From a virus: a DNA stretch of 31,960 bases. Location of the stretch: positions 1-31,960 of IMG/VR virus record IMGVR_UViG_3300044948_000402. The stretch is one strand, 5' to 3'. Shown here piece by piece: positions 2,620 to 20,041 of the stretch (positions within the stretch are counted from its first letter, which is position 1; each line of letters opens with the position of its first letter). The position numbers and the translations under genes are program-made. The notes beneath the pieces are model-generated. The model was given only the letters and a program-made list of their open reading frames with translations. It made no database searches and was not told the origin of the DNA.

Positions 2620-2978
2620 GAAGCGTTCGGAAGAAACTCACCCGGAAGGATTTAAAAGAACTCCCACTCCGCCCATACCCCGGCATGGTGTTCGTCACCA
2701 AGAGTCGGAAGGCGTTCGAGCGTGCAGCGATGGAGTTGTTTGGGCGCGAAGAAGACCTCAGCGGGAAAGCCGGGAGGTTTCTTATGGAGCCGTCATGGTA
2801 TCATCCGCACACGTCGCTGGTCTGGTATTCGAGCCATGCGGTATTGGCGCACGAGCTGGCGCATGTGATCTTCGGTATCTTTGACGCAGTAGGGATTCGC
2901 GCCGAAAGCGGGAACGAGGAGCCATTCTGCTATCTATTGTCGCAGTTGTTTATGGAGGCTACGGAGAAGAATGGTTGA
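2610..2978 (+). CDS. Small HExxH putative metallopeptidase-like protein (122 aa)
   Basis: The protein has a basic N-terminus and a zincin-like motif HELAH at residues 81-85, followed by NEEPFCYLL with Glu103/Glu104 as a possible third metal ligand. Small phage proteins of this type (HExxH followed by a downstream EE and an aromatic/Leu helix) occur next to packaging genes. Their biochemical role is unknown to me. The ATG at 2610 is chosen because GGTGAAGAG ends six bases before it. The ATG at 2616, which forms an ATGA overlap with the terminase stop, is an alternative. Longer starts at 2532 would only read the terminase gene out of frame. Peptidase activity is inferred from the motif alone. 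Confidence 0.72.
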   Translation: MVMRSVRKKLTRKDLKELPLRPYPGMVFVTKSRKAFERAAMELFGREEDLSGKAGRFLMEPSWYHPHTSLVWYSSHAVLAHELAHVIFGIFDAVGIRAESGNEEPFCYLLSQLFMEATEKNG

Positions 2979-2986
2979 CATCCACC

Positions 2987-3004
2987 ACGACGAAACGTAA
3001 AGAC
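2987..3004 (+). promoter_or_regulatory. Phage leader/promoter motif, copy 2, before tRNA block
   Basis: ACGACGAAACGTAAAGAC ends four bases before the mature 5' end of tRNA-Met. Because the downstream product is untranslated RNA, this copy favours a transcriptional role over a ribosome-binding role. A TTGACA at 2975-2980 with a 17-base spacer to TAAAGA (2998-3003) also resembles a sigma-70 promoter here, but the other copies do not preserve that arrangement. Confidence 0.6.
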
Positions 3005-3008
3005 GTTC

Positions 3009-3082
3009 AGCGCGGGTGACGAAAGGCTAGTCGGGACTCTCATACGGTTCATTACTCGGTTCGATTCCGAGTCGCGCAACCA
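3009..3082 (+). tRNA. tRNA-Met (anticodon CAU)
   Basis: A full cloverleaf folds by hand: acceptor AGCGCGG/TCGCGCA, D stem GAC/GTC with a loop containing GG, anticodon stem GGACT/GGTTC with loop CTCATAC, variable loop ATTA, T stem CTCGG/CCGAG with loop TTCGATT, and encoded CCA. The anticodon is CAU at 3041-3043. Position 1-72 is an A-A mismatch. The anticodon stem lacks the three G-C pairs of initiator tRNA, so elongator Met is most likely. A lysidine-modified Ile(CAU) tRNA cannot be excluded. Confidence 0.85.
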
Positions 3083-3156
3083 AAAGGGCTTGTCGTTTGA
3101 TTGCACTGTATTTGGCAGCAACCGATTCTGATTTCAAGCGACTCGCCCACCAAATA

Positions 3157-3234
3157 CCCAGAATAGCTCAGCAATGAGAGAGCGGCGGAATTCTAAACCG
3201 CAGGTCGTCGGTGCAATCCCGACTTCTGGTCCCA
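3157..3234 (+). tRNA. tRNA-Arg (anticodon UCU), divergent
   Basis: The acceptor CCCAGAA/TTCTGGT has a C-U mismatch at 1-72. The D stem is GCTC/GAGC, the anticodon stem GCGGA/ACCGC and the loop ATTCTAA gives anticodon UCU. The variable loop is AGGTC, the T stem GTCGG/CCGAC, and CCA is encoded. The T loop TGCAATC has G at position 55 instead of U, and the D loop lacks the usual GG pair, so the elbow contacts are altered. There is an A-A mismatch at 31-39. A TTTTT run follows the CCA. It would read AGA codons. Confidence 0.78.
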
Positions 3235-3246
3235 TTTTTAGCAACA

Positions 3247-3260
3247 GCGGGAAGCCCCGC
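3247..3260 (+). other. Small hairpin upstream of tmRNA
   Basis: GCGGG pairs with CCCGC across the loop AAGC, between tRNA-Arg and the tmRNA 5' end. It may separate or mark processing of the two RNAs. No T-tract follows. Confidence 0.35.
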
Positions 3261-3269
3261 AACCATAAT

Positions 3270-3697
3270 GGGCCACTTCCGGTTTCGACAGAACAGAAGG
3301 CCCTCACGATAGCATGCAGAGGTTGATCGGTTGGCCTCTTAAAAGCCGATCACGAATCCAAATGGCAAACATCAGTTCGCCCCGACCGTCGCAGAAGCCG
3401 ACGCCATCCTTGCCCGTTTCGGTTATGCCGAAGCTGGTGAACTGGCCGCAGCCTAAGCCTCGGAAGGTAACGGTCCCCGGAATGATCCGATAACTGGGAG
3501 ACTTCAAAGCGGATCAAAAGACAGTCTGAGTCCTGCCGATGATTCAGTGGTGGAGGCTATTGGAAGAATCGAAAGATGAAGCCAGTCGCCCTCAAGGACT
3601 CCGGCCGCCTTGTAAAATCCGGGTTGGAGATAAGCATGTTTGAAGTTGTGAGGAGAATCAGTTCTGGACAGGGGTTCGACTCCCCTGTGGTCCACCA
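3270..3697 (+). ncRNA. ssrA: tmRNA (transfer-messenger RNA)
   Basis: This is a one-piece tmRNA of about 428 bases that would rescue ribosomes stalled on truncated mRNA and tag the product for proteolysis. The 5' end GGGCCAC pairs with GTGGTCC at the 3' end, followed by A-CCA. TTCCGGTTTCGACAG matches the conserved 5' tmRNA block. GAGG-TTG-ATCGG-TTGG-CCTC and AGCCGAT form the PK1 pseudoknot. TAAGCATGT and the T arm AGGGG-TTCGACT-CCCCT are conserved 3' elements. The best tag frame runs from about GGC at 3364 to TAA at 3454-3456. It includes QFAPTVAEADAILARFGYAE and ends GELAAA, giving about 30 residues, long for a tag. The resume codon is not certain. CCA is encoded and TTTTT follows at 3698. 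The gene lies within phage genes, so it is probably phage-encoded. Confidence 0.93.
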
Positions 3698-3703
3698 TTT
3701 TTC

Positions 3704-3719
3704 TTGACGAAACGTAAAG
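3704..3719 (+). promoter_or_regulatory. Phage leader/promoter motif, copy 3
   Basis: TTGACGAAACGTAAAG begins seven bases after the tmRNA CCA end and ends 19 bases before the ATG at 3739. Copies 1, 3 and 6 share a TTG immediately before ACG and leaders of 16 to 19 bases. Copies 1 and 3 also share TGAATC in the leader. Confidence 0.6.
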
Positions 3720-3738
3720 TTCATGAATCGTCACAGGC

Positions 3739-5304
3739 ATGGCAGCCAAGGACGAAGACATTGGAGGAGTGGGGCAACGCGCAGCAGGAGCCGTTGCGGC
3801 GAACAAGCTGGAGATTGTTGAGGGCTATCCAGGCAAGGAGAAGAAGAAGGAGGAAAAGAAGAAGAAAGGTGCCGTGAATCAGATCCAGCCGCCGACCGAT
3901 GACGGAGTGGTGAAAGATCCGAAACTCTACGCGAAAGCCCGCGCCAAGCAGTCGATGTTTTCAGGCTCCGGGCGTGTGATTACGCCGGGGAAAGACGGCA
4001 ACGACCGCTTCCAAGGCCGGTATCAGATGGGCCGTTTTGCAGGCAAGACGCCGGAAGAGGCGGATGAGATTTTTGAAAGGACATACGAAAAAGCCACCCC
4101 CGCCCAGCGCGAGGTGTATGCGAAGAAGGCCGACCCCGGCGCAGGCATGGCCCCGAGCGAACGAGCGAAGCAGTTGAAGCTGCAACGGGACAAGGAGGCG
4201 AAGGAGAATCCGGTTCCGCAGGCGAATGCGAAGGACGAGAAACCCGCCCCCGGCGCTGACTTCGAGAAGCTCACCGTATCCCGCCCACACAATTTCAACA
4301 TGGATGCCTCGGGACTGGCCACCGGTCCTGATGGGAAGATCAACGCGATTGGCGATGGATCTACGAAGGATGGGAAGTGGATTGCTGCACTTGGAAACGA
4401 CGCAAGCCCGTTTGCCGCGATGGACGCGAATCCATACTCCCAAGCCGCGAAAGACGTTGCGAAAAATCAAGCCCTCGCCACCGAAAACACGGCACGAGAA
4501 AAGGCGACAGCCGAAAGGACCGCCCAGATGAAGAGCCAAGGTCAGGCCGCCGCCGTAGGACTTGGGGTCCAACCTGCTCCGACTGTCGGACCGCCAGCAT
4601 TTGTCGGACCGCCAGCTTCAGCAATGAATCCCGCGCCCAACGTCCAGCCCAACGTCCAGCCCGCCGCTGCCGCAGTTACATCTGCCGCTACTCCCTCCGC
4701 ACCCCCGTTCGTCGGACCACCCGCCCCCGCCCCCGCCCCCGATAGCAAATACGATTTTGAACCCGGCGAAGGCAAAGAACTCACAGGCATGGTCGGAGGC
4801 CGCAAGACCTACACCAAGGCTGACACGTTGTATGGCGCAGCGAAGCCGCCGATGGCAGCACCGTCGCTTGACGCCATGCGCGCCGACTACCAAGCCCGCA
4901 ACCAGAACGTCGCTGCCGCCGACCGCGCCTTGCCGTCGTCACTGAGAACCCCGACGGCACCAACTCCCGCCGCTCTCCCGATGCGCGGACCCGCCAGCCA
5001 ACCAGCGGCCGTCACCGCGCCACGCGCAATCGTGAAGCCGAACCAAGACGTGATGAATCAGCACGCCTCTGCCATGGAACGCCAGCACGCTTACGGCGCA
5101 GATCCGGCACTGGCCAAGGAAACGCAAGGGATCTTCAACAATGCCGACGTGAACACCCGGAACGCCATCGGCGGTCAGGTGGCACTCCGGGCGCAGGGGA
5201 TTGACAAGCCGGCCATTCAGAAGCCGCAACCAGTCTCCCAGCGCGTAGTCGCCCAACGTCCGGCCACGCCGGAGGAACTGCGGACCGGTAAAGCGAGAAT
5301 TTAA
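3739..5304 (+). CDS. Pro/Ala-rich hypothetical phage protein (521 aa)
   Basis: The protein is not recognised. Residues about 33-44 are a Lys/Glu-rich stretch (KEKKKEEKKKKG). Residues 70-125 look globular (FQGRYQMGRFAGKTPEEADE). The middle is long and low in complexity, with repeated VGPPA-type units around 278-335 and Pro/Ala/Gln runs. The C-terminal third is also rich in Ala, Pro and Gln. The ATG at 3739 follows motif copy 3 and gives a whole ORF. The gene directly precedes the giant polyvalent gene and shares its Pro/Ala linker style, so it may be an internal virion or ejected protein. That role is inferred from position only. Confidence 0.6.
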   Translation: MAAKDEDIGGVGQRAAGAVAANKLEIVEGYPGKEKKKEEKKKKGAVNQIQPPTDDGVVKDPKLYAKARAKQSMFSGSGRVITPGKDGNDRFQGRYQMGRFAGKTPEEADEIFERTYEKATPAQREVYAKKADPGAGMAPSERAKQLKLQRDKEAKENPVPQANAKDEKPAPGADFEKLTVSRPHNFNMDASGLATGPDGKINAIGDGSTKDGKWIAALGNDASPFAAMDANPYSQAAKDVAKNQALATENTAREKATAERTAQMKSQGQAAAVGLGVQPAPTVGPPAFVGPPASAMNPAPNVQPNVQPAAAAVTSAATPSAPPFVGPPAPAPAPDSKYDFEPGEGKELTGMVGGRKTYTKADTLYGAAKPPMAAPSLDAMRADYQARNQNVAAADRALPSSLRTPTAPTPAALPMRGPASQPAAVTAPRAIVKPNQDVMNQHASAMERQHAYGADPALAKETQGIFNNADVNTRNAIGGQVALRAQGIDKPAIQKPQPVSQRVVAQRPATPEELRTGKARI

Positions 5305-5371: not shown

Positions 5372-8300
5372 ATGGATGATGAAATTTTCCGCCAGAAAGG
5401 GCCAGGCGTTGCGCGTGGCGAAGCCGTCGATGCGAATCCGAGTGAACGGAGTGGTGGCGGAGGGTCCGGCACACCGATTTGGAAGTCGTTTATCACCAAT
5501 GAATCCATCAACAAGCGGGACCGCGTAGCGATTGCCAACGAGCAGCGGGCGATCGCATCGAAGGACAACGAATCTTCCGCTCCCCACGAAACATGGGGAG
5601 GCGACAATGGCCGCCTACTGAGAAAAACCCGCAACGGCATCGAGCAGTTCGACGCGGAACTCTACACGGAAGATCCGAACGTCGGCGGATTCGCTCGCAA
5701 GAGTCTGTTTGACCGCGAGAAACGCACGGCGGCCGCCGAATACGACTCGCACGCTTTGCGGTTGGAAGATCCGGCGTTCAAGGCGAAGCAGTTGAGCAAG
5801 AAGGCTCGGGAGGACATCGAGCTGGAGGGTTCCGTGCTGGCGGAGACCGATCCTCGACACAAGCAGCTCAAGGCCCAACTCGTCGCCGACGACGAATACC
5901 GCGCCGAGCGCGCCGACTTGGAGCAGCGGAAATACGACGCCAAGGTCAAGGCGACGAATCTTGGCAACACCGACCATGAATCATGGTGGTCAAGCCGCGA
6001 GGCACCTGCCCCGGTTGATCCGGTGCAGACCGCCGTTGCTCAGCGTGATGAAGCCGACGCCGCCGATCAGTCGGCGATGGAGGAAGAGAAAGCGTTAGGT
6101 CAGGAATTAGCTGGTGGAGTTCCCGCCGCTCGCTTGCAGGAAATTCAGGCGCGTCAGGCGGAAATCTCTCAAGCCCGCGCAGTGGCCGGCGAGAAGAAGG
6201 TGGAGGCGGGGCAGGCGATTGAGGGGGTGAAGGCCGCAGCGGAAAAAGAGAAGCCGTTTTTTGGAATGGGCGATACCGTTTCAGGCATTTGGGATGCGGT
6301 TAAAGGGCTTGGTGTCACTGCCCCTGCTGCATTTTACCAGTTAGTCGAGGGGATGGAACGCCCCGACACTTACTCTGAATCCGCCAAAGCCGCGTTCGCC
6401 GAGGCGGATGCGTTCAACAAGGAGATGCAGGCAAAGACCGCGGCGAATCAAGCGGCGGGAACAAGTTCATCGGTGGGTGAAAGTTTCCGCGAAGCTGGTC
6501 AAAGCCTTGGTTTCACGGCTGGAAGCATGGCCGCAGCAATTCCCGCTTCTATCGCCGGGGCAAAAGCGGGTGCCGCAACTGGCGCAAGTATTGCCGCAAT
6601 CGCTGGCTTTGCCGGACCCCAAGCCGCAACTCCCGAAGAAATTGTAACCGTCCCCGTTGGTGCTGGCCTTGGCGGCCTTATTGGTGGCGGTGCCGCTGCT
6701 ATGGCCGCGTCTGGAACAGCGGCCTATCGCATGGCCGGGGCGTCGTTCCTCAACGAATCATTCCAAGCCCTTGAAGCGGAGTCCATGCGTAAGAGCGGGC
6801 GGGCGATGAACGAGGAGGAAAAGCAATCGGCATACGAGTCTCTAATGCCTATCGCGCAGAATACCGCGCTTTGGGAAGCTGGCCCCGAGGCGGTCGGCAA
6901 CGCCGTTTCTCTTGGCGCTGGTAAAATCATATTTGGGTTAGGTAAGCCACTCATGGCAAAATTCATGGCAACTGCTGGCGGAAAAATCGCCACAAAAGCC
7001 GGAGCTGCCGGAGCAGCGCTTGGAACCGAGCTTGCCACGGAAACCATCACGCAGGTTGAGCAATCCGCCGACCAACAGAAAATGCAAGAAGTCGTTGCTG
7101 GACGTGATCCAAGCACGGTTTCCGCCAACTGGTCTGCTGGAGGCGTTGTCGAGGCGTTCAAAGAAGTTGCACCACAAACCCTTGCCCTCATGGGCTTAAT
7201 GGGTGGTGCTGGCGGCGCTGTCAAAATTGCATCCAAGGGAGTTGATGCACTCAAAAGCACCAACGAAGGAGACGCAGCAGTCAAAGCGACAACCACAGCC
7301 CTCCGCGCCATCGACCCCGAAGCCCCCGCACCATCGGCGGATGAAGTGGTCAGTGCCGCGAGCATCGTGAATCCGAACCGTGGATTTGAAGGATTTGCCG
7401 AAGGCGTCCGGATGGAACGGGCGATGAAGATCATTTCGACGGAAGACGACGCATCGCTTGCTGCCGCTGAGGAGGCGCTGACAGCCGCCAAGGCGTCAGG
7501 TGACACGAATGCAGTCACGCTCGCCGAAGAGGGCAAGGCGAAGGTGCAGGGACGAGCCGAGGGCGTCCGGGCGGTTCTAAAGATCGCCGCTGGCAAGCGG
7601 TTGGAAGATTTGACTAAAGCCGAGCTGGCATCGCTTGGATTCAACGAGGGGGAAAAGGGAAAAACTCCCACCCCGATGTCCGACGAGGAGCTGGCGAAAG
7701 TCGGGTTGGATGATATTCAGGTCACGTTGAGGGAAGATCCGGAGACGGAAGCCGTCGATCTAATCATCAGAGACGCCGCCATCAAGCGGGTGACATCCAT
7801 CCTCCCCGCCGCCGCCAACTTCGTCACGAACGAAGAGACGGCGATTGCAGGCGCGCAGAAGCGGAGGACTGAGGCGGCCGAGGCCGCGAAGGCCGCGAAG
7901 ATTTCCGGGCAAGCCCCGGCACAACTTTCCACGGAGCAGCAGAATGGTGAGCAGGGAGATCCTGCTACGGGTTTGCAATTCCCCTTAGAAACAAATGCGC
8001 CCGTGGAAACATTTTTTGACGTGCCGGTCCGCACTGGTCCGCCCGTCCGAGTTCAGGCGAATTCGCCGCAGGAGGCTGAACTAGCCGTCGCTGGCATGTT
8101 CGCCCCGCATGAGAACGGCGTGTTGCCGAATCAGGCGGTGGCTGTCGCCCCCAATCCAAATGCACTACCAAATCAACCTGCCGCAATTGCCCCCGGAGTC
8201 GCCGGAGGAAATCCAGTCCCGAATCCGGCAGCGGGAATTCAGCCGTTGGTGGAGGGAAGTTCAGCAACTCCGATCGCTGCCGATCCCGGCACCGGAGTTC

Positions 8301-11300
8301 CAGGTGGAGGAGGATTAGCGTCTCCGCTTGCCGTCGGCCAGACGATCGTTCACGGAGGCATTCCGCGTGTAATCGCTGACATCATCCCTCACCCTTCAAC
8401 GGGTTCACCCGTCGTTTCATTTACAGAGAACCCGCAAAGCTACGTTTTCCCAGAACCTCAATCCAATGAGCAGAACCCGCAAGCCCCACCCCCGCAAGCA
8501 CAAGTGCCGATGCCATCGGTGCCAGTTGGGACGCCGACACCCGCGAACGCTGGCATTGCTGGCGGCAGCGCGCCGATTGCTGGGACTCCCCAAGCGCAAG
8601 TGCAAGGTGCGGTAGCTTCGCCCGAGGCACAAGCGATCGAAGAAAGGTATCAATCGTCTCTTCGCCTTGCCGACTCATGGGCAAAAAACGATCCAGAAAA
8701 AGCAGGGAAGATGCGCAAGGCTGCGGGAATGATCCGGGCCGCTGAAGTGCGAAAATTAACTGGCAATCTCACAGGCAAAGAGCAACAGGCGAAAGCCAAG
8801 CGCGAGGCGTCAAATTACACTGGCAAGCCAGTTGTTGTTGGAGGCCAAACAGGGAAAGTCGCAAAAACCGCGTTTGGAAAAGTGGTTGTGGCGTTTGACA
8901 ACGGAGAGACGCGATCCGTAAATCCTGATGAGATTTTCGACGCTCCCGCCACCCCCAAACCCGCCGCCGTTGCCAAAGCCCGCACCATCATCGCCGAACA
9001 TCGTTCCGGTGTTCTGAAAGCCCTCACCCCCGAAATCCTCAGTGTCGCGCAAGAGACAGGAATGCCCGTCACCAACAAAACGACGCTGGATGAAGTTGTT
9101 TCCCACCTCGACGCGAAGTTCCCGACGGTGAAAATCGAGGACATTCCAAAGCCGACGGTGGCCAAGGTTTCCAAGCTCGTCACCGAGACGCTGGGCGCGT
9201 GGAAGAAGAATCCCGCCATCAATTCAGTTCTCAAGCTCGACACGAAATTCACCGCCAAGGCGGAAACCGTTGAAGGCTCCGGCGTTCACTTGAATCCTCA
9301 GTTGTTGGTGCAAGAGATCGCCACGGCGGGACTCTCTGACACCGACGCGAAGGTCTGGCTCGACCGCGTTCTATTCGAGGAGCTTCACCACTTGTCGCAG
9401 CTCCAGACGTTCCGTGAAATCTATCTGCGTCAGGTAAAGGCGAAGGAAACGAAGCTCTCGTTCGAGAAATGGCGTGAAGCCTACTCGAAAACTCTGATTC
9501 AAGAGTTCAAGAGCATAAAGTTCCTTGAGACTAATGAAAACGGCGACACCGTAGAAGTGAGTCTCTACGAAAAGGCCGTTGACGCCTATGGCGTGACGCT
9601 GAAAGCAAAAGGCACCCCCGCATGGATTCAAGTCTCCGAGATCAACCGGATGATCTTGCAAGACATGATGACCGGTAATCCGACCGAGGCGACCAAGGCC
9701 GCGTTGGGAGTGAAGGAAATCCGAGACTTCATCAATCAAGCCCTCGAATCCCTCAAGGCGTTCGTCGCGGAGTTCCGTGCGGATTCATCAAACTTCTCCA
9801 AAGACCTGATCGAAAACATGGATCGGGTCGAAGAACTGCTAAAACAATATGGAATCACCAACGTCACAGACCAAAACCAATCACGCCCAAGAACTCCAAA
9901 AGCTGATTCAGCTCAGCCCGCTCAAAGCAAGCCGAGTGTTGGAACTAGCATCACGCCCGCACAAGGGGGCGATAGCAGCCCTAGTGGGAATGGCGGGACT
10001 CAGCAGGCATCAAGCAACGGCGCTGGTTCACCATTACAGCCAGGTCAAAGGGTAGAGTTTGAGCATAAGGGAATCGCTGGAACTGGCGTGGTTCGTCTGG
10101 CGTCGAAAGAAGCGGTTTCGATTTATCCTGACAGCAATCCGGGCGCGGCGATTCTGGTTCCGGTGGGTAGCGTGAGATCGGTCGTCGCCCCTCTCGCGGA
10201 CACCCCGCAAACCCCGGCTGCGGAGAAATCCCCGGTGGCTCTCACGCCCGAGGAAGAAAGTCAGAAAGCTTACACGAAGCTGAAGAGCTCCGTGGCAAAA
10301 GCTCAACGCTCCGAAAAATGGAGTGAAGTGGTTTCTCTGATCGACCAAGCTGAAAAAGACTTCACCGGCACAAACGGATTTTCTGACCAATGGCAAAACT
10401 TCGAGCGTTACCGTGAAGACGCGCAGGAAAAACTCACGCCAAGATCGTTTGTTACGCCAATACTCAAGCCTTATGTGCCGTCCGCGCCCGCCCTCACCCC
10501 CGACGAGCAAGCCCTAAAAGACGCATTCTCCGACATGGTGGACGGACTCGAAGCCGCGCCACTTATTGAACCAGACCCTTATCAGTCAAAAGGCATCCCC
10601 CGCGACAAGCGCGCTACATTCATGGACGTGGCCGACCAGCTTTACGATGCAGGCGTCCGCACACCTGCCGACCTTGCGGCCAAGTTGGAAAAAGTCGGCG
10701 GTGGAAAACTCCGCGCTTATTCTGACGCCGTGTGGAGCGTTCTTCGCTCAAATTACCCGACTCTCCCGCAAGCTAGCGATTGGGCTGGAGTTTATGCGGG
10801 GTTGGACAAGCCAGCAAATCAGGCCGAGGCTGGTTCTGATTTCAACAACGCCAAAGGCAAGGTGTTGCAAAGCGTTTCCAATAACACCCGTGACATGCTC
10901 CTTGATGGCGAAACGGTGACGGTTGATCGAATCAAGTCAGCCGAGCCATTGTCCTCAACGCTCACCCGCAAGGAATTGGATGAAGCGATTGAAGCAGGGA
11001 TCACCGCCGCAGCTCACCAAATGGTTAAGCGAGTTGATGATTATGCGGATGGAACGGATAATGTGCAGGAACGCACGTTTAACGCCCTTGTTCGCCTCTA
11101 CGACCGCCAGCCATCGCTCAACGCCAAGACCAGCACCAGCAAGATCAATCAAGCATATTCTACGCCGTCACCACTCGCCTACGTCGCAAGCCGCCTTGCT
11201 GACATCGCGGGCGGAAAGGTTCTTGTCGAGCCGACCGGTGGACACGGGATGCTTTTGATGGAATCAACTGCCGACCAAGTGGTGCAATTTAATGAAATCG

Positions 11301-14300
11301 ACGACGCTCGCCATGAGCGCACGAAGTTGGCCATTTCTGAATCATCCGGTTGGACAATGACCAGCGAAGACGCGACATCATGGACTCCCAGCCAATCGCC
11401 TGACCGGATCGCAGCAAACCCACCGTTTGGCTCAGTGATGGCCGAAGATGGTAGCAACATCGCGTGGATAACGGCAGCAGGAAAAACATCCACTATCGAC
11501 CACGCGATCATGCTTAAGCAGCTCGGGAGCATGACGCCGGACGGTCGCGCTGTCTTCATCATCGGCGGACCCGCCAAAACTGCCAGATCGGAAGCCGCTC
11601 GGAAAGAACACTACGGGCGAGGCGCGAAAGCCGCGTTCTTCAAGCACCTCCACGACAACTTTGGAGTGGTGGATCATTTCACCGTCGATGGCGACCTTTA
11701 CGCCAAGCAGGGCGCGGGATGGAATGTCGATGTGATCGTGATCCAAGGCCGCAAGGCTTCCAGAACCTCCTTGCCATCGGCCAAAGCCCCGCGTATGCTT
11801 GCGACGTGGGACGATGTTTTTCAAACTACCCAACTGACAGATGAACAAAGAATCCAACTCAATCGCCTTAGCGAGGAAGAAGTGCGCGACTCAGTTCGCG
11901 GCATGGTTGATGCTCTCGCCGGAATTGGAAACGTGGGAAGACCGCAGATTTCTAGTTCACGACCTGAATCGAGTGGCGGACAGGATGGAACAGGAGGGAC
12001 GACCCGTGACACCGTTTCTTCCGAGTCTTCAGAAACCGAGTCAGGAGACAATCAAGGAACTGGCGGAGTGGGCGGCGAACGCGATGGCGTTGTTGGAGAT
12101 CAGCCCGCCGGAGTGGAGCAAGGAACGGAACCATCTGGAGAAAACTCAGGAACTCGTGGATCTTCTGACCCAAGCGGCAATCCCGCTGGAGCCGTCAGAA
12201 CTCCGGTAAAGGAATCCGGCAAGTTTCAGGCGGAATACACGCCGTTCAGTGGAGAAAAAGGGCTGGATACGCTCTTGCCGAGGAATATGGTTGGCCCGGT
12301 GGCGGATGCTTTCGCTCGGATCAAGCGGGACTTGGGTGGCAACCTCACGAAGTTCGTCCATGAGAAGCTCGGATACCCGGAGGGCGTGGACATCATCCCA
12401 TACCTCGCAGGCGAGCAGATCGACGCGGTAGCCGCCGCCATCTGGAACTTTGAAAAAGGCGGAGCATTGATCGTCGGCGACCAGACGGGAATCGGCAAGG
12501 GCCGGATCGCTGCCGCTTTGATGAAATACGCCGTGAATCAAGGATATATCCCGGTCTTCATGACCAAGGATTCCGGCTTGCACGATACAATGCTTACCGA
12601 GGATCTTCCTGACATTGCCGCGCCGGAGATCATCCCCGCCGTGATGGATACCCAACTCCAATTCACTTCCGCGAAAAAGCAGAAGCTCGATTATGGGCAG
12701 GAGTATTTCGCCAACCTATCGTCGGCGAATGGCGGGGCTGCGATTTTAACGCCTGAGCAAATCAAATCAAAGCTGCCAAGTGGTAGAGGGCCGGGGTTTG
12801 ATTACGAATTGGTTGCTCCAGGAGTAGCTTCCAGACTTGTATCGAATGCATCAGGGACGACTCCAAACATACTTCCAGATTGGCATATTGTTGCACCGGG
12901 ATTATTCACCGTTGGGCGGGGCAAAACTGCCATGGACGCCTATCGGGGATACTTGGATCATATTGGCGAAAATGAAGAGCAAGCGCCGATTAAAACTCTC
13001 CCCGGCAAGTCCAACGCCATCTTCGTCACTTACAGCCAGATCCAATCCGACGACGCGAAAGGACTCACCAAGCGTGACCGCGCCACCGCTCGCAACGCCG
13101 GGGAACCGCCCGCCGACAACTGGCGGATGCGGACGCTCCGCAGGCTCGCCCCCAACGCGGTCTTCATCCTCGATGAAAGCCACCTCGCCTCCGGCCAAAG
13201 CACCACGGGTTGGCGCGTGGCTGACATCATCGGTCGCTCGCCCCGCGTCTATTACTCGTCGGCAACGTCGGTGAAACGCCCGGAGAACATGGGCATCTAT
13301 TTCAAGACCAACGTGGGGATGCTGACCAACGGCAACATGGCAGACCTCACCGACCTGATGAACCGGGGCGGAGTTCCCGCCATGCAGGTGGTTTCCTCGA
13401 TGCTCGCCCAAGATGGACAATACCTCCGACGCGAGCGCAGCTTCGACGGGGTGAGCTTCACCACGCAGATTGCCGAGGAAAGCTCGGATCGCGACCGCGA
13501 CCTTGCCGACGCCCTCACTGGCTCATTGCGCGAGATCGTCACCGTGCAGGATGCCATGCGCCAAGCGGCGGAAGCGATCAACAGCGTCATCGCCGCCGCT
13601 GGAAGACGGATGAGCGTCCCCGCCGCCAACCGGGCAAAACTCGAAACCGTCAACTTCTCGTCCAAGCTCCACAACATCGTCGGCCAATACCTGCTGGCGA
13701 TCAAAACACAGTCCGCTGCCGATACGGCAATCCGGGAAATCCGGGCGGGAAAGAAGGTGGTCGTCGCCTTGCAATCCACCATGGAAAGCGCCATCGACGC
13801 GCTGGAGACAGGCGGATTTGAAATGAGCTACAAGGGCTTGGTTCTTCGCTACCTCGACCAGATGCGCTTCCTTAACAGCGGCAACCGCGCTTTCGGTCGT
13901 GGCGAGGTGGAGACCTTTGAAGTCACGGAAGATGGATTGCCAGAGTTTGAGGAGCTTTCCAGCCGTGAGCTTGAGGCGCGGATCGTGTCAACCAGTCGCG
14001 ACCCAGAAACCGGAGATACTATCATCCTCATCAACGAGGACGTCGCCGCCGAACTGATGCGCCGCGCCATGTGGGACGTGTTCGTCAACGCCCGCGAGCA
14101 AATCGAAAAAGCCGACCTTGGAGACCTTCCGCTTTCCCCCATCGACGCCATGCGCCAAGCAGTGGAGCGCGAGGGCATCCGCACCGGAGAAATCACCGGG
14201 CGCAAGCGCGGAATCGACGTGGACGGCGAGATTTACGCCCGCTCCGCGCAGGACACCAGCAAGCCCGCCCGCCGGGTGGTGCAGTCCGCATTCAACAACG

Positions 14301-17300
14301 AGGACTTGGATTTCCTCGTCATCAACCAGAGCGGATCGACCGGCATCAGCCTGCACGCCTCGGAAAAGGCCAAGAATCAGGCAACGCGGGTGATGGTCGT
14401 CGCCCAGCCGAATCTCGACATCAACGAGTTCATGCAGACGCTCGGACGGATTCACCGCTCCGGGCAGGTAGTGAAACCGGAGTTCATCCTTCTGCAAACC
14501 GCGCTCCCTGCGGAGAAGCGGCCCGCCGCGATCTTGGGCAAGAAAATGTCCATGCTCAATGCCAACACCACGTCCAACGCCAAGACGGACGTGAGCGAGG
14601 GCAACACCGCTGTCGATATTTTCAACCAGTATGGTGATGAAGTCGCCTACCGGGTGTTCGAGCGCGACCCGGACCTACAGCGTCAACTCCGCCCGCTGGG
14701 ATCTTCGCTGGCGAAGTTCTTCGACAAACTGACAGGCAACGCGCTCTCGTTTCAAGACGCACAAGGAGCGGTTGAAGACCAGCCCGCCGGATACATCGCC
14801 CGGACGATTACGGGCTATCTCGCAATCCTGCCCGTGGAAGAGCAGGAGATTTTCTGGGAAAAGACCATTGCCGACTATCAGGCATACATCTCCTATCTCG
14901 ACCAGATCGGAGCGAATGCACTGGAAGCGAAAGCTCTCGACCTTCAGGCCAAGACGATTTCCAGCGAAGTCTTCACGGAGCAAGCTGAAGGCGATTCAGC
15001 GTTTTCTGATCCGTCATACATCGAAACGGTGGAAACTAAAGTTGGAAAAGAACCGTTGACTGGCGACGCCGCCGTTGAGCTTGCACGCGACGCCAAGGCG
15101 CAATCAAAGCGGATTCTCCAGAAGTATCTCTCTGATGCGGACGCCATGGCGAATCAGCACGCCGACCAAAAAGCCAAGCGAGCGGTGAAGAAATGGGATG
15201 ATGAAAAACGCGCAGAGTTCCTTTCAAACCAACGCGCCCAACGAAACGTCATCGCGTCTTCAATCTCCCTTATTGGCCGCTTCGGAAGCGTGAAGCGCAA
15301 TGACGGGAATTCGGGACTTGGAGTAATTGAAGAGATCAAGATGGACAACGAACACCTCTTGACTCCCAGCAAGCAAATCGCGGTGATTCGTGTGAATGAC
15401 AGCCGCGAGACGCTCCGCGTGCCAGTGACTCAACTGAACGAAGCGTTCACGCCAAGCCCTTACGAGTCGGCGAAAGAATGGACTGACACCACAGACGTTG
15501 GTGGAGAAAGCGCCATCGCCACTGGCAACCTCATGGCCGCGATGAAAGCTCTTGGAGGATCAGGAAAGGTCATCACCTACACCACGGACACCGGGGTTGA
15601 TAAAATGGGCATCCTGCTTCCGAAGTCGTTTCTCACGAAGCGGGCCGCCATCAAGGCGCGCGTCCAAGTTGGAACGGCTGAGAAGCTATTGGAGATGCTT
15701 GATTTAGGCGTTCAAGTTACCAATGAAGACGGTTCGATCAAATGGACGAAAGGCGGTAATCTCGTCACGCTCAGTGTTCCAGCGTCTCGCTCTAACGGAG
15801 GAAATATCTGGAGACATCCGACCCTCAACCGAAATTCGATTGGCAGCGAATTCACTCAGGTCGGAAATGAGATGAGAGCCACATACGGCACTGGAGTTAT
15901 CCGTCTGGTGTTTCAAATTGTTACTGAGATGGGAGAGACGTTTTCAAGCGTAAAGTCCGACACCGGCACCACCCTCCGCGCCGCCGAGCTGCCAGCACAA
16001 GCCCGCCACGCCGAACTCGAAGCCCGCAAGGACAGTTTGACGCCCGGGGAGCTTGCCGAGGCGCAGGCGTTGGTGGATGCGGCGGCGAAGGCTGCGGGGT
16101 ATAACCGGAAAGGGGTCCGGTTTGGGTTCTACGTTGACGGCGTTCCTTTACCTCCTGCGCGTAGCACAGAATTGAATTTTGGTCCGGGGTATTACGTCGC
16201 GGAAGATGCGGTATTGTCGGATATGACTTCAGATAAAGTTAGTGTTCGTCCGACCGGAAACGAGGGCGAATTTGAAAGACTCGGAGTTGACCCAAGTAAA
16301 GTGGAATTTAGGCGTGATAGTGTCTATGTGAAAGCCGAGAACCCCTTGGTGAGCGCCAATGGGGGTAACTACTCTCCCGAGACAGGGAAATTCATCATCG
16401 CCCAGCTTGCGTACGACTCTGCTCTACAAGACGCGAAGAGGGTCTTGCGTATGCCGTTCGAGCAAACTTCGTGGTCAAAAACTGTGGCTGATCTGATTGC
16501 GGATTCCCGTATTCCTTTTGACTCAGTAAGAGGGTTAACCGGACGAAAAGGAATGACCTCGGAGTTGGTCGTTCAGAATCCCTCCCAAATCAAATCCGCC
16601 GACCCATTCACCGGAGTCCCTCTCAGCGAGCGGTTCAACTCTTCCAGCCCGAGCATTCTTCAAACCGCCCCTCTCCCCTCCACCCCCGCCAAAAAAGCCC
16701 GCGACGCATTCAACGCAAACCGCGAGAAATTCGAGAACGCGCAAGAGCAAGTGAAGGCGCTTGGCAGCGGCACCGCAGGCGCAGATCCTAAATTCGCCAA
16801 TCCCGGCGCAAGCCCGAAAGCCCGTGATGCGTTCGACATCGCCCGGATGATCGACAGCAATCAGCGCGAGATCAAAAAAGACCGCGACACTCACGCGCAG
16901 GGTCGGGAGTTTCTTGAGAAATACCCGGAAGAGGTTGAAAGACTTCTCTTGGAATCTGGATACGGCGACAATCCGGAATTCACCAACGATTACCGCCAGC
17001 ACGCGATCAATCTGCTTCTCAACCGCAAGGCGGAAGCAGCGAGCACCACGGCAGACTATGAGCAGCTCTACATGCTCGCCACCGCGAATGTCATTCTTGG
17101 CCGTGAACAAGCACGGGCATTCCGTCAACGCATGGACAAGTTCCTGACGCCCGCAGAACGCGCACACGCCGCTATTGCCGACGCCATCTTCACGCCGAGC
17201 AAGAAGATCGCCGCTCGCGCCGAAGTGATGAAACCCGCCGAGCGCAAAGCGTTTCTCGCCGACGAAGGCAAGAAGCGCATCGCCGAGGTTGAAAAGGCAC

Positions 17301-20041
17301 TCGCAAAACGCGACCTGTCTATCCAGCAGATTCAAGGCAAGAACCGCGACTTGCAACTCGTCAACTCCCGCCTTGAAAAAGAAGTCTTGAGTCTCCGCAA
17401 CACGCTGGAACAAGACATCATTCGGTTTGTCCAGAAGGGCGCGTCCCCTGTGGACGTTAGAAAGCGGTTTGGAAAATTAGGCGCAGAGCAGGCGAAGGGG
17501 ATCATCGAGAAAGCCGCCGCCGAAATGGACGAGAAGCTGTATAAGATGCTCGCCGCTGGCATGACGATGGAAGACATCCTCGCTTCCCAAAGAGACACGC
17601 TGAAGGCCGCTCCGCTCGCGGGTGCCGCTGCCGGGATGAACGAAGCCGCCATGCGCGCGCTTGCCATGAAAATCCGCAAGGAACAGATGGGAATCCCTGA
17701 CGCTGAAGCGTGGTCGAAAAGCCGCCCGCTCCCCACCGCTCGCCCGAAGAAACCCGTCACCGAGATCGAAGCGCACCCGCTCGCCGCCAACTGGTCCCGC
17801 CCGGAGTTCTCCGACCACATGAAAACCGTGGTGTTCGATTTGAAGGACCGCCACGGAATCATGGAGCGCGTGGAGATCATTCGCGGATTGGCCGGCGCGT
17901 TGGGCAAGATCGACAGCTTGACCGGCGAGAAACGCACAAAGGCTGAAGCCGCCCTCGACGACATCAACAAAACCCTCGCCAAATACAACACCGACGCCAA
18001 GGGGATCTTCGAGGGAACTAAGGGAATCGAGGACTACCGCTTCGACATCAACGACGTGGCGCATGTCGCTCTCGTTGCCCGCACGATCAATTCGCTGGAT
18101 GCCGACTTCGTGGACAAGGCGAGTGAATATCTCTACTTCTCCATGCTCTCCGGCTTGCAGACAATGATGGTGAACGCCACGGCGATTGTTCCCGCAGCGT
18201 GGGAATCCACCGTGGGACGTGGCGTGAACATGGCGATCAACCATTTCGTCAAAGACCCGATGGCCGAGCAATACGGCGAAGGGAAATACATCGTCCGCGC
18301 ACTCGGGACCGCAATTTCACGGGCTTGGTCAAACGCTCAAGCCTCCATGGCCGCGCAACACCCGATGTTCGACCGGGACGTGAATGCAATGGAAGTCGAT
18401 TGGGATAAAATCCTCGGTGGCGGAAGTCACCGGATGGTTGGCAGCATCGCCGGACGCAAGGGGGATTTGATCCGCCTGCCAATGCGCCTGCTGACAGCAA
18501 CGGACGATTTCAACCGCACGCTCATTGCCGTGGCTGAGGTCGGGACGTTCGCCTATCGCATGGCGAAGATGAAAGGATTGAAAGACGGCAGCGCCGAGAT
18601 GGACACCTTCATCCGCCAAGAGGTCAACACCGCTGGAAGCCTCTCCTATCAAATGGCCAGCCAGAAAGCATCCAAGGCGATCTACTCGAATCCGCTGCCC
18701 GGACAAAAAGACCCGCACACAGGCAAGGAAGTTCCCCGGCATGACATGGGCGACTTCGTGGGATACATGGCCGCCCGCCTCACTGATGCCGTGACCGGGG
18801 AGCACGACAACATCTTCATCAAGGCACTCTCCGCCGCTCTCCGCGTGGCGTTCTTCCCGTTCCAACGCACGCCGTTCAACATCATCCGCAAGGGTGTTCG
18901 CCACACGCTCAATCCGTTCTCGCTCGCCGACATCGCAATGGGAGTTGTGAGAAACACCCGCGTCGATGGCAAGTGGCAGTGGGCGATCGAAGGCGACGGG
19001 CAGGAGGCGATGAACCGCCACCTCCACCGCGCCGAGTTGATCGAGCGCATGGGCCAACAGTTGCAAGGTGCCGTTCTCATGACCGCGCTCTACGCTCTGG
19101 CATGGGGCGAAGGCGACGACGACGACCAAGATCAAAAATTCATCATCACCGGATCGTCTCCATTCCTTCCAACTGGCATGGCCGAGCGTGACGCCCGGAT
19201 GCGTTCCGGCATCGGACCATTCCGCATGTCATGGATGAACAAGGACGGCAGCGAACGCCTTGGATTCTCCTACGGCCGCATCGAGCCAGTGGCAACTATC
19301 CTCGCCGCGACCATCGACATGATGAAGTCGTTCAAGCGCGCCGACCGATCCGGCAAGGACACCTACGACGCAGGCATGGCAGCCATGGGCGGCCTCATCA
19401 GCCAAGCGCAAGACAAGAGTTTCATGAAGGGCATCGGAGACTTCATCAAGCTCTCATCGTCCGTCATGACCGAGCCGGACTTGCGCGAGAATCGCAAGGC
19501 GCTTCAGTTCCTTGCCAGCCGCGCCGCGATGGTGGTTCCAAACTTCATCAAGCAGCCGCTCCGCGAATCAGACACGCAGTTCCGCGACCGCGCCGACGGA
19601 TTCATGCAGTCTCTCATGTATGAAGTCGCCCCCATCGGCCAGAAGCCCGCGAAGGTCGATCCATACGGCAAGAAACTCACGAAACCCGGCGTTGCCCCGC
19701 TCCGCCCGATCGACCCGACGGACATCGGTTCTGACAGCGTGAACACCTTCGACCGCGTTCTTCTGAAGTGGAGTGACAAGCATCCTGACAAGGCGTGGTT
19801 CCCATCGCCGATCATGAAGGGCGAATTCAAGCACGCTCGCACGGGTGCCGTGGTGGAGATGAATCAAGCGCAACTCACCGAGTTCCGCGACATCGCCGGA
19901 AAGCGCGTCACCGCCATGCTGAAGCGTGCAGGAATCAACATGCAGAATCCAACCGAACTCGACCTGAAGAAAATCAAGGAAGCGCACACCGACGCAAGGT
20001 CCGAGGCGAAAAAACTGGTTGCATTCAAATATTCACGATAA
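5372..20041 (+). CDS. Giant polyvalent protein: N6-MTase, Strawberry-notch/DarB-type helicase, LPD-like C-terminus (4889 aa)
   Basis: The ORF is uninterrupted over 14.7 kb. Residues 1-310 are charged. Residues 378-564 are Gly/Ala-rich and hydrophobic. SH3-like modules lie near 987-1030, 1149-1190 and 1554-1603. RVLFEELHHLSQ at 1332-1343 is a possible metal-binding site but not a true HExxH. Residues about 1905-2130 form an adenine-N6 methyltransferase, with EPTGGHGMLL from 1953 as motif I and NPPFG at 2016-2020 as motif IV. A superfamily-2 helicase follows, with GDQTGIGKGR at 2369, DESH at 2601 and QTLGRIHRSGQ at 3022. Residues about 3583-3770, ending in QIKSADP, resemble the ADP-ribosyltransferase-like modules of polyvalent proteins. 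A coiled coil lies near 3970-4023. Residues 4134-4710 (LLTATDDFNRTL, FFPFQRTPFNII) match the C-terminal region of large phage proteins. DarB-type proteins protect phage DNA from host restriction, and many are packaged in the virion. Either role is an inference here. Confidence 0.9.
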   Translation: MDDEIFRQKGPGVARGEAVDANPSERSGGGGSGTPIWKSFITNESINKRDRVAIANEQRAIASKDNESSAPHETWGGDNGRLLRKTRNGIEQFDAELYTEDPNVGGFARKSLFDREKRTAAAEYDSHALRLEDPAFKAKQLSKKAREDIELEGSVLAETDPRHKQLKAQLVADDEYRAERADLEQRKYDAKVKATNLGNTDHESWWSSREAPAPVDPVQTAVAQRDEADAADQSAMEEEKALGQELAGGVPAARLQEIQARQAEISQARAVAGEKKVEAGQAIEGVKAAAEKEKPFFGMGDTVSGIWDAVKGLGVTAPAAFYQLVEGMERPDTYSESAKAAFAEADAFNKEMQAKTAANQAAGTSSSVGESFREAGQSLGFTAGSMAAAIPASIAGAKAGAATGASIAAIAGFAGPQAATPEEIVTVPVGAGLGGLIGGGAAAMAASGTAAYRMAGASFLNESFQALEAESMRKSGRAMNEEEKQSAYESLMPIAQNTALWEAGPEAVGNAVSLGAGKIIFGLGKPLMAKFMATAGGKIATKAGAAGAALGTELATETITQVEQSADQQKMQEVVAGRDPSTVSANWSAGGVVEAFKEVAPQTLALMGLMGGAGGAVKIASKGVDALKSTNEGDAAVKATTTALRAIDPEAPAPSADEVVSAASIVNPNRGFEGFAEGVRMERAMKIISTEDDASLAAAEEALTAAKASGDTNAVTLAEEGKAKVQGRAEGVRAVLKIAAGKRLEDLTKAELASLGFNEGEKGKTPTPMSDEELAKVGLDDIQVTLREDPETEAVDLIIRDAAIKRVTSILPAAANFVTNEETAIAGAQKRRTEAAEAAKAAKISGQAPAQLSTEQQNGEQGDPATGLQFPLETNAPVETFFDVPVRTGPPVRVQANSPQEAELAVAGMFAPHENGVLPNQAVAVAPNPNALPNQPAAIAPGVAGGNPVPNPAAGIQPLVEGSSATPIAADPGTGVPGGGGLASPLAVGQTIVHGGIPRVIADIIPHPSTGSPVVSFTENPQSYVFPEPQSNEQNPQAPPPQAQVPMPSVPVGTPTPANAGIAGGSAPIAGTPQAQVQGAVASPEAQAIEERYQSSLRLADSWAKNDPEKAGKMRKAAGMIRAAEVRKLTGNLTGKEQQAKAKREASNYTGKPVVVGGQTGKVAKTAFGKVVVAFDNGETRSVNPDEIFDAPATPKPAAVAKARTIIAEHRSGVLKALTPEILSVAQETGMPVTNKTTLDEVVSHLDAKFPTVKIEDIPKPTVAKVSKLVTETLGAWKKNPAINSVLKLDTKFTAKAETVEGSGVHLNPQLLVQEIATAGLSDTDAKVWLDRVLFEELHHLSQLQTFREIYLRQVKAKETKLSFEKWREAYSKTLIQEFKSIKFLETNENGDTVEVSLYEKAVDAYGVTLKAKGTPAWIQVSEINRMILQDMMTGNPTEATKAALGVKEIRDFINQALESLKAFVAEFRADSSNFSKDLIENMDRVEELLKQYGITNVTDQNQSRPRTPKADSAQPAQSKPSVGTSITPAQGGDSSPSGNGGTQQASSNGAGSPLQPGQRVEFEHKGIAGTGVVRLASKEAVSIYPDSNPGAAILVPVGSVRSVVAPLADTPQTPAAEKSPVALTPEEESQKAYTKLKSSVAKAQRSEKWSEVVSLIDQAEKDFTGTNGFSDQWQNFERYREDAQEKLTPRSFVTPILKPYVPSAPALTPDEQALKDAFSDMVDGLEAAPLIEPDPYQSKGIPRDKRATFMDVADQLYDAGVRTPADLAAKLEKVGGGKLRAYSDAVWSVLRSNYPTLPQASDWAGVYAGLDKPANQAEAGSDFNNAKGKVLQSVSNNTRDMLLDGETVTVDRIKSAEPLSSTLTRKELDEAIEAGITAAAHQMVKRVDDYADGTDNVQERTFNALVRLYDRQPSLNAKTSTSKINQAYSTPSPLAYVASRLADIAGGKVLVEPTGGHGMLLMESTADQVVQFNEIDDARHERTKLAISESSGWTMTSEDATSWTPSQSPDRIAANPPFGSVMAEDGSNIAWITAAGKTSTIDHAIMLKQLGSMTPDGRAVFIIGGPAKTARSEAARKEHYGRGAKAAFFKHLHDNFGVVDHFTVDGDLYAKQGAGWNVDVIVIQGRKASRTSLPSAKAPRMLATWDDVFQTTQLTDEQRIQLNRLSEEEVRDSVRGMVDALAGIGNVGRPQISSSRPESSGGQDGTGGTTRDTVSSESSETESGDNQGTGGVGGERDGVVGDQPAGVEQGTEPSGENSGTRGSSDPSGNPAGAVRTPVKESGKFQAEYTPFSGEKGLDTLLPRNMVGPVADAFARIKRDLGGNLTKFVHEKLGYPEGVDIIPYLAGEQIDAVAAAIWNFEKGGALIVGDQTGIGKGRIAAALMKYAVNQGYIPVFMTKDSGLHDTMLTEDLPDIAAPEIIPAVMDTQLQFTSAKKQKLDYGQEYFANLSSANGGAAILTPEQIKSKLPSGRGPGFDYELVAPGVASRLVSNASGTTPNILPDWHIVAPGLFTVGRGKTAMDAYRGYLDHIGENEEQAPIKTLPGKSNAIFVTYSQIQSDDAKGLTKRDRATARNAGEPPADNWRMRTLRRLAPNAVFILDESHLASGQSTTGWRVADIIGRSPRVYYSSATSVKRPENMGIYFKTNVGMLTNGNMADLTDLMNRGGVPAMQVVSSMLAQDGQYLRRERSFDGVSFTTQIAEESSDRDRDLADALTGSLREIVTVQDAMRQAAEAINSVIAAAGRRMSVPAANRAKLETVNFSSKLHNIVGQYLLAIKTQSAADTAIREIRAGKKVVVALQSTMESAIDALETGGFEMSYKGLVLRYLDQMRFLNSGNRAFGRGEVETFEVTEDGLPEFEELSSRELEARIVSTSRDPETGDTIILINEDVAAELMRRAMWDVFVNAREQIEKADLGDLPLSPIDAMRQAVEREGIRTGEITGRKRGIDVDGEIYARSAQDTSKPARRVVQSAFNNEDLDFLVINQSGSTGISLHASEKAKNQATRVMVVAQPNLDINEFMQTLGRIHRSGQVVKPEFILLQTALPAEKRPAAILGKKMSMLNANTTSNAKTDVSEGNTAVDIFNQYGDEVAYRVFERDPDLQRQLRPLGSSLAKFFDKLTGNALSFQDAQGAVEDQPAGYIARTITGYLAILPVEEQEIFWEKTIADYQAYISYLDQIGANALEAKALDLQAKTISSEVFTEQAEGDSAFSDPSYIETVETKVGKEPLTGDAAVELARDAKAQSKRILQKYLSDADAMANQHADQKAKRAVKKWDDEKRAEFLSNQRAQRNVIASSISLIGRFGSVKRNDGNSGLGVIEEIKMDNEHLLTPSKQIAVIRVNDSRETLRVPVTQLNEAFTPSPYESAKEWTDTTDVGGESAIATGNLMAAMKALGGSGKVITYTTDTGVDKMGILLPKSFLTKRAAIKARVQVGTAEKLLEMLDLGVQVTNEDGSIKWTKGGNLVTLSVPASRSNGGNIWRHPTLNRNSIGSEFTQVGNEMRATYGTGVIRLVFQIVTEMGETFSSVKSDTGTTLRAAELPAQARHAELEARKDSLTPGELAEAQALVDAAAKAAGYNRKGVRFGFYVDGVPLPPARSTELNFGPGYYVAEDAVLSDMTSDKVSVRPTGNEGEFERLGVDPSKVEFRRDSVYVKAENPLVSANGGNYSPETGKFIIAQLAYDSALQDAKRVLRMPFEQTSWSKTVADLIADSRIPFDSVRGLTGRKGMTSELVVQNPSQIKSADPFTGVPLSERFNSSSPSILQTAPLPSTPAKKARDAFNANREKFENAQEQVKALGSGTAGADPKFANPGASPKARDAFDIARMIDSNQREIKKDRDTHAQGREFLEKYPEEVERLLLESGYGDNPEFTNDYRQHAINLLLNRKAEAASTTADYEQLYMLATANVILGREQARAFRQRMDKFLTPAERAHAAIADAIFTPSKKIAARAEVMKPAERKAFLADEGKKRIAEVEKALAKRDLSIQQIQGKNRDLQLVNSRLEKEVLSLRNTLEQDIIRFVQKGASPVDVRKRFGKLGAEQAKGIIEKAAAEMDEKLYKMLAAGMTMEDILASQRDTLKAAPLAGAAAGMNEAAMRALAMKIRKEQMGIPDAEAWSKSRPLPTARPKKPVTEIEAHPLAANWSRPEFSDHMKTVVFDLKDRHGIMERVEIIRGLAGALGKIDSLTGEKRTKAEAALDDINKTLAKYNTDAKGIFEGTKGIEDYRFDINDVAHVALVARTINSLDADFVDKASEYLYFSMLSGLQTMMVNATAIVPAAWESTVGRGVNMAINHFVKDPMAEQYGEGKYIVRALGTAISRAWSNAQASMAAQHPMFDRDVNAMEVDWDKILGGGSHRMVGSIAGRKGDLIRLPMRLLTATDDFNRTLIAVAEVGTFAYRMAKMKGLKDGSAEMDTFIRQEVNTAGSLSYQMASQKASKAIYSNPLPGQKDPHTGKEVPRHDMGDFVGYMAARLTDAVTGEHDNIFIKALSAALRVAFFPFQRTPFNIIRKGVRHTLNPFSLADIAMGVVRNTRVDGKWQWAIEGDGQEAMNRHLHRAELIERMGQQLQGAVLMTALYALAWGEGDDDDQDQKFIITGSSPFLPTGMAERDARMRSGIGPFRMSWMNKDGSERLGFSYGRIEPVATILAATIDMMKSFKRADRSGKDTYDAGMAAMGGLISQAQDKSFMKGIGDFIKLSSSVMTEPDLRENRKALQFLASRAAMVVPNFIKQPLRESDTQFRDRADGFMQSLMYEVAPIGQKPAKVDPYGKKLTKPGVAPLRPIDPTDIGSDSVNTFDRVLLKWSDKHPDKAWFPSPIMKGEFKHARTGAVVEMNQAQLTEFRDIAGKRVTAMLKRAGINMQNPTELDLKKIKEAHTDARSEAKKLVAFKYSR
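8160..8318 (+). CDS. Nested ORF A in a linker of the giant gene (52 aa)
   Basis: This ORF is in the +1 frame relative to the giant gene and encodes 52 residues, including SRIRQREFSRWWREVQQL, with balanced charge and two Trp. The giant frame here is a low-complexity Asn/Pro/Ala/Gly linker (residues 930-982). By hand count 40 of 52 nested codons end in G or C, against 20 of 52 for the giant frame over the same bases. That is the bias expected if the nested frame is or was coding. The longer in-frame start at 8109 is less convincing. No Shine-Dalgarno is evident. It may be an expressed overprinted gene or a relic of a gene lost by fusion. Confidence 0.4.
   Translation: MHYQINLPQLPPESPEEIQSRIRQREFSRWWREVQQLRSLPIPAPEFQVEED
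8466..8615 (+). CDS. Nested ORF D, basic Cys-containing (49 aa)
   Basis: This ORF is in the same +1 frame as the other nested ORFs and opposite a Pro/Gln/Ala linker of the giant protein. It encodes 49 residues beginning MSRTRKPHPRKHKCRCHRCQ, with Cys at 14, 16, 19 and 46 and a Leu/Ala-rich middle. About 39 of 49 codons end in G or C. Arg/His/Cys-rich translations also arise by chance when Pro-rich, GC-rich DNA is read out of frame, so this is the weakest of the four candidates. Confidence 0.22.
   Translation: MSRTRKPHPRKHKCRCHRCQLGRRHPRTLALLAAARRLLGLPKRKCKVR
9849..10055 (+). CDS. Nested ORF B in a linker of the giant gene (68 aa)
   Basis: This ORF is in the +1 frame, with 68 residues predicted as mainly helical: HAQELQKLIQLSPLKASRVL, then an Ala/Leu/Gly helix and RHQATALVHHYSQVKG at the end. 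The giant frame over the same bases is a Ser/Gln/Pro/Gly-rich linker (residues about 1493-1561). That linker lies between the EELHH-containing region and the third SH3-like module. The nested ORF ends just as the SH3-like module begins. No ribosome-binding site is evident. It could be an overprinted gene or the remnant of a small cistron between two formerly separate genes. I do not recognise the family. Confidence 0.42.
   Translation: MESPTSQTKTNHAQELQKLIQLSPLKASRVLELASRPHKGAIAALVGMAGLSRHQATALVHHYSQVKG
11841..12209 (+). CDS. Nested ORF C between MTase and helicase domains (122 aa)
   Basis: This is the best nested candidate. The +1 frame encodes 122 residues of ordinary composition, with helices such as FLVHDLNRVADRMEQEG, ETIKELAEWAANAMALLEI and NHLEKTQELVDLLTQAAI. 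The giant frame over most of it is a Gly/Ser/Thr/Glu linker with no predicted structure (residues about 2188-2280). That linker joins the end of the methyltransferase region to the start of the helicase. By hand count 84 of 122 codons end in G or C. The first 30 or so codons overlap a part of the giant frame that still looks structured. It may be a translated overlapping gene, or a relic of an operon in which small genes separated the two enzymes. Its function is unknown. Confidence 0.52.
   Translation: MNKESNSIALARKKCATQFAAWLMLSPELETWEDRRFLVHDLNRVADRMEQEGRPVTPFLPSLQKPSQETIKELAEWAANAMALLEISPPEWSKERNHLEKTQELVDLLTQAAIPLEPSELR

Follow-up and report, generated by a model that had tools for sequence, protein, structure and literature searches.

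Whose signal does a phage-borne tmRNA place on unfinished proteins, that of the host or one of its own? The question is raised by a transfer-messenger RNA (tmRNA) gene on the plus strand at positions 3270–3697 of the window, the whole stretch of DNA analyzed here, which is a linear fragment of 31,960 bases (IMG/VR virus record IMGVR_UViG_3300044948_000402). A tmRNA is charged by alanyl-tRNA synthetase (AlaRS), enters the ribosome guided by SmpB, and has its tag translated. The usual view takes phage tmRNAs to be spare duplicates of the gene in the host. In the present case, constraint acts on the RNA body, but the tag is unlike the one used by the host of a related prophage. We consider it likely that the locus is a working phage tmRNA that uses host AlaRS and SmpB and adds a virus-specific tag of 30 amino acids (aa).

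The gene is a complete one-piece tmRNA (ssrA) that is called by ARAGORN and matches Rfam family RF00023 over its full length (97.6 bits, E-value 3.7e-37, model positions 1–374 of 374, gathering score 47). The 5′ strand of the acceptor stem, GGGCCAC (3270–3276), contains the G3 of the G3-U70 alanine identity pair and forms 7/7 pairs with the 3′ strand GTGGTCC, which is followed by an encoded ACCA (3687–3697). Pseudoknot 1 (PK1; AGAGG/CCTCT and ATCGGTT/AGCCGAT; 3318–3350) lies ahead of the resume codon GGC, from which it is separated by a spacer of 13 nucleotides (nt). The TAAGCATGT element (3631–3639) lies in the 3′ domain, and the T arm AGGGGTTCGACTCCCCT (3670–3686) has 5/5 pairs. The G3-U70 pair, the 7/7 acceptor stem, and the 5/5 T arm are kept with different bases in the window and in four related viral tmRNAs (L006, L388, L038, and L073). 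PK1 displays compensatory changes among the relatives, such as GAGG/CCTC to GGGG/CCCC and ATCGGTT/AGCCGAT to ATCGACT/AGTCGAT. Covariation of this kind indicates RNA-level selection that maintains the tmRNA body. Judged by the features that define the one-piece family, the window tmRNA is a typical member, and its novelty lies in the tag.

The tag reading frame (3364–3456) runs from the resume codon GGC (3364–3366) to a TAA stop (3454–3456) and encodes GKHQFAPTVAEADAILARFGYAEAGELAAA, a peptide of 30 aa that ends in ELAAA (C-terminal stretch AEADAILARFGYAEAGELAAA). ARAGORN and the Rfam alignment consensus place the resume codon identically. Comparison with the tag of viral locus L254 provides a codon-position test of the frame. 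The differences between the two tags fall 8/8/24 across the three codon positions (third-position excess, P = 5e-4); 14 of the codon changes are synonymous and 13 non-synonymous. In the GGC frame, 16/29 residues are identical between the two peptides, compared with 3/28 and 4/28 in the alternative frames, and outside the tag the tmRNA body of L254 is only 47–61% identical to that of the window. Because of the third-position excess and the in-frame identity, selection is judged to act on the window tag at the peptide level; three viral tag families share this third-position bias. The original prediction, made from the letters of the window, had named a tmRNA at this position with PK1, a 3′ element, and a T arm, together with a tag of about 30 residues ending in LAAA. 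Both statements hold, and the covariance model that it proposed as a check keeps the resume codon in the GGC frame without a shift.

The window tmRNA is the phage's own gene. It lies inside the phage genome rather than at an integration junction, with phage genes on both sides, and is 100% identical in the viral copies L004, L090, L267, and L269, the first and last of which belong to a single contig. A more distant relative, L006, with 50% identity between its giant protein and that of the window in the best segment, carries a tmRNA at the equivalent place, between the terminase large subunit (TerL) gene and the next large open reading frame (ORF) (RF00023, 115.6 bits). The two tmRNAs are 91% identical over nt 231–288, but the tag of L006 is GNNVIRGQFGNRAISQELLALPA. 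The tmRNAs of the window, L006, L388, L038, and L073 form one clade in a tree of the conserved flanks (90/82, not starred).

The core of the window tag, AP..AEADA.L...G....LAA, recurs under peptide-level selection in tmRNAs of other uncultivated viruses. A profile built from seven other viral tags, with the window tag left out, retrieves the window tag at 40.5 bits (E-value 2e-10), and 12 of its 30 residues are invariant across the family set. The eight-member profile matched no tmRNA in 917 prokaryote genomes, a sample per phylum comprising 388 Verrucomicrobiota, 237 Omnitrophota, 246 Planctomycetota, and 46 others; all matches at E-values up to 0.01 in those genomes fell in long ORFs. All four viral controls were recovered by the profile, but their tags are near-copies of profile members. 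Searches of 50,697 phage records with four viral tag sequences brought up no credible match, and the literature searched, with most subscription journals outside its reach, contained no account of a conserved viral tag family. An AlphaFold model of the tag places a helix at residues 9–18 (pLDDT 86 for block 11–20, low overall pTM), a peptide model that is weak evidence. A broader and rather improbable generalization is that viruses of uncultivated bacteria maintain a tmRNA tag class of their own, long, conserved as peptide, partly helical (AEADA.L), and not found in sampled bacterial tmRNAs, which would send proteins from stalled ribosomes to a non-host fate, for instance by engaging another adaptor or protease or by shielding them from degradation.

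Two further tag families are present among the viral tmRNAs. One carries RVAEG[DE]AILAS[IL]F in a tag of 26 aa (L081, L092, L098, L123, and others) and the other TFDDxMSFVGADYALAA in tags of 23–24 aa (L020, L056, L069, L074, and others). Both display peptide-level conservation by codon position, and neither was found in the cultured phage records.

The length of the tag is best seen against both bacterial and viral tmRNAs. The most frequent tag length in a 2025 tmRNA database is 10 aa, and tags much shorter than usual are already on record (PMC11915505). Tags in the sampled bacteria differ from the viral ones and mostly have 9–11 residues; those of Verrucomicrobiota have 9–16 aa (n = 56), with a maximum of 20 aa when the longest tmRNAs were checked, and at 30 aa the window tag is not of this short host type. 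Viral tags, 57 of which were gathered by a 3′-end pattern blind to the tag and limited to tmRNAs that ARAGORN could call, have a median of 21 aa; 29/57 reach at least 20 aa and 3/57 at least 30 aa. The tag of the window is thus long compared with bacteria and at the upper end of, but not exceptional in, uncultivated viruses, so that the unusual length first ascribed to it stands against bacteria such as Verrucomicrobiota and falls away against viral contigs. ARAGORN itself misses phage tmRNAs with odd tags (for example L006:4634-5016, L388:10445-10811, and L038:417-758), and ARAGORN-based counts of phage tmRNAs are therefore probably too low. Among 20 viral loci that it left uncalled, 12 are full-length RF00023 matches above the cut-off and three more are cut by the end of the locus.

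Evidence on the host comes from a related prophage. Contig C172 of the Verrucomicrobiota genome G250 has a chromosomal lgt gene and an ftsK of chromosomal type; after them comes a prophage, and its TerL shares 58% identity with that of the window. The FtsK of this contig is 54–73% identical to FtsK of six other Verrucomicrobiota, compared with 38–51% to that of one Omnitrophota and one planctomycete genome. The prophage has a tmRNA of its own (101.2 bits, tag GKQNASFSRSRVVSDDLVLSN), located 35–39 kb away from the junction on the ftsK side. The tmRNA that belongs to the host lies on a different contig and encodes the 10-aa tag ADSNELALAA. Over nt 43–83, the window tmRNA is 95% identical to a Verrucomicrobiota tmRNA with this same tag. 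From these likenesses, the window virus most likely infects Verrucomicrobiota, and the tmRNA body probably came from a Verrucomicrobiota host. The claim that the tag is distinctive holds when it is set against ADSNELALAA, the tag of this plausible host. Cultured phages were also considered as a route to the host and set aside; TerL matches were at most ~27% identical and spread over mixed hosts, and the portal protein had no match. A different Verrucomicrobiota genome, G014, contains two full tmRNA genes, on contigs C14 and C67 (L418 and L410), with the short tags ADYEGLALAA and ANEELALAA.

The tag could instead simply be that of the actual host, a member of an unsampled bacterial group with a long chromosomal tag, whose gene the phage copied. 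Long chromosomal tags do exist: 22 of the 29 sampled Omnitrophota tags have 20–31 aa, and several contain VAEAEAILA. The genome search is a sample per phylum, moreover, and a host is known for a relative only. Set against this are the short ADSNELALAA tag of the Verrucomicrobiota host of the related prophage, the lack of a tmRNA match to the tag profile in the 917 prokaryote genomes, and the position of the body in a viral clade whose tags differ greatly in length. Omnitrophota were rejected as the source of the tag; in spite of the VAEAEAILA likeness, their tags score ~10 bits against the profile, within background, and homology is not claimed. The first Omnitrophota loci with VAEAEAILA were retrieved by a pattern built on that same motif, and the pattern scan of genome contigs covers the matches listed rather than a census. 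Taken together, a copied host tag is an unlikely explanation.

Neutral variation in length is another explanation, under which the loop can accept insertions, ribosome rescue needs no more than a frame closed by a stop codon, and function is confined to the last residues. The lineage itself gives this some force since its tags, all with a GGC resume codon at nt 95–98, are unrelated in sequence and span 7–30 aa: 30 aa in the window, 23 in L006, 21 in L388, 7 in L038, and 15 in L073. Alanine is the last residue in four of the five tags and Ala-Ala in three. The codon-position pattern and the 16 of 29 residues kept with L254, in spite of a body that is 47–61% identical, point instead to constraint on the peptide, and the two further viral tag families have the same codon bias. 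Neutrality of length is accordingly doubtful for the window tag.

The two remaining alternatives concern the frame and the origin of the gene. Translation could resume one base later, at GCA, giving a 42-residue product (ANISSPRPSQ...GMIR). GCA is the resume codon of Escherichia coli, and the E. coli A86 rule calls for an A 4 nt before the resume codon (PMC2481249). The window has an A at −4 of GGC, as the rule asks, and also at −4 of the +1 frame, so the rule alone is insufficient. In L388, the A stands at −4 for the GGC frame only, the +1 frame gives an alanine-ending tag in none of the five lineage members, and both Rfam and ARAGORN choose GGC. With peptide conservation absent (3/28 against L254), the GCA frame is rejected as very improbable. 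Least credible of all, and rejected, is an origin from a host tmRNA, either as an attachment-site copy, a refutation named with the original prediction, or as a decayed remnant: the gene is complete, with compensatory changes and phage genes on both sides, it has identical viral copies and a counterpart at the equivalent site in L006, and the tmRNA of the G250 prophage is internal while the host gene is intact on another contig.

The favored reading, a working phage tmRNA with its own tag, implies the following course of events. Charging, SmpB-guided entry, and tag translation are predicted because they are established tmRNA biology and the features that they need are intact. During infection, the expressed phage tmRNA would be charged with alanine by the host AlaRS and brought to stalled ribosomes by the host SmpB. 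Translation would resume at GGC and append the 30-residue tag ending in ELAAA-COOH, freeing the ribosome and labelling the nascent chain. The RKH motif of ClpX interacts with a terminal di-alanine (PMC9601184), which the AAA end of the window tag retains. Tagged proteins would thus still be routed to ClpXP, with the extra ~20 residues adding a segment that determines an adaptor or a fate; their conservation as peptide argues for such a binding or fate function, and the tag may thereby divert proteins from their normal fate. That it redirects host tagging or protects phage translation, as proposed with the original prediction, is a hypothesis. The tag would be the fast-evolving, phage-specific part of the molecule, lengthened, shortened, or replaced within the window's lineage.

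Several observations weigh against this reading. The closest relatives carry different tags, two of five without Ala-Ala (L006 ends in ...LALPA and L388 in ...LVLSN), so a ClpX degron is not a constant feature of the lineage and no single tag function extends across it. The host evidence is for the host of a relative at 58% TerL identity, not for the window's own host. No SmpB-like family was found among the scanned proteins of the window, which is a fragment, and host SmpB is assumed for this reason. No sigma-70-like promoter was found at 2700–3900. Exchange of tags between bodies, hinted at by a first tree, is unsupported: the body tree rests on a short alignment of 172 columns, and a single clade for all AEADA-tag tmRNAs is not rejected (p-AU 0.40).

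The surrounding genes, all on the plus strand, are those of a phage. Upstream of the tmRNA lie TerL (877–2619; PHROG terminase, 58% identical to TerL of the G250:C172 prophage), a cryptic tRNA-like gene with a CAT anticodon and encoded ACCA (3010–3082), which at 24.9 bits is below the Rfam gathering cut-off of 29, and a tRNA-Arg(TCT) that adjoins the tmRNA (3157–3234; 42.8 bits). A callable tRNA-Met(CAT) is also present near the tmRNA in the relatives L006 and L388. Downstream, a phage gene of unassigned function (3739–5304), with a 659-aa ORF in the equivalent place in L006, is followed by a giant phage protein of 4889 aa (5372–20041) common to viral contigs L002–L008. Further downstream lie the portal protein (20824–23016) and the major head protein (25936–27426). 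Tandem repeats in or beside coding sequence are present at 20063–20794 and 31580–31960 (33/99-bp and 54-bp units), the former within a mucin-like 243-aa ORF adjoining the portal gene.

The window virus may alter the outcome for proteins whose ribosomes have stalled; if the tag does affect their fate, phages edit a near-universal quality-control signal of bacteria. Phage tmRNAs were listed before in Bacillus phage G, mycobacteriophages Bxz1 and others, and DS6A (PMC4131195), and in the marine phage Melnitz and 402 of 18,146 phage genomes (PMC9004378). DS6A has little beyond the tRNA-like domain and the Melnitz tmRNA is two-piece, whereas the window tmRNA is complete and one-piece; it differs from the listed examples also in belonging to a phage related to a Verrucomicrobiota prophage and in carrying a tag of a virus-restricted family. 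With the one-piece tmRNAs of RF00023 it shares the tRNA-like domain with G3-U70, the T arm, PK1, the TAAGCATGT element, and a stop-ended tag frame, but its tag is 30 aa long with a Gly start compared with the most frequent 10 aa (PMC11915505). Chromosomal Omnitrophota tmRNAs have long tags (20–31 aa), several with VAEAEAILA, but score ~10 bits to the viral profile and have bodies in a separate group. The chromosomal Verrucomicrobiota tmRNA with the ADSNELALAA tag is alike in RNA body, up to 95% identical over nt 43–83, but its tag is 10 aa from a GCN start where that of the window is 30 aa from GGC.
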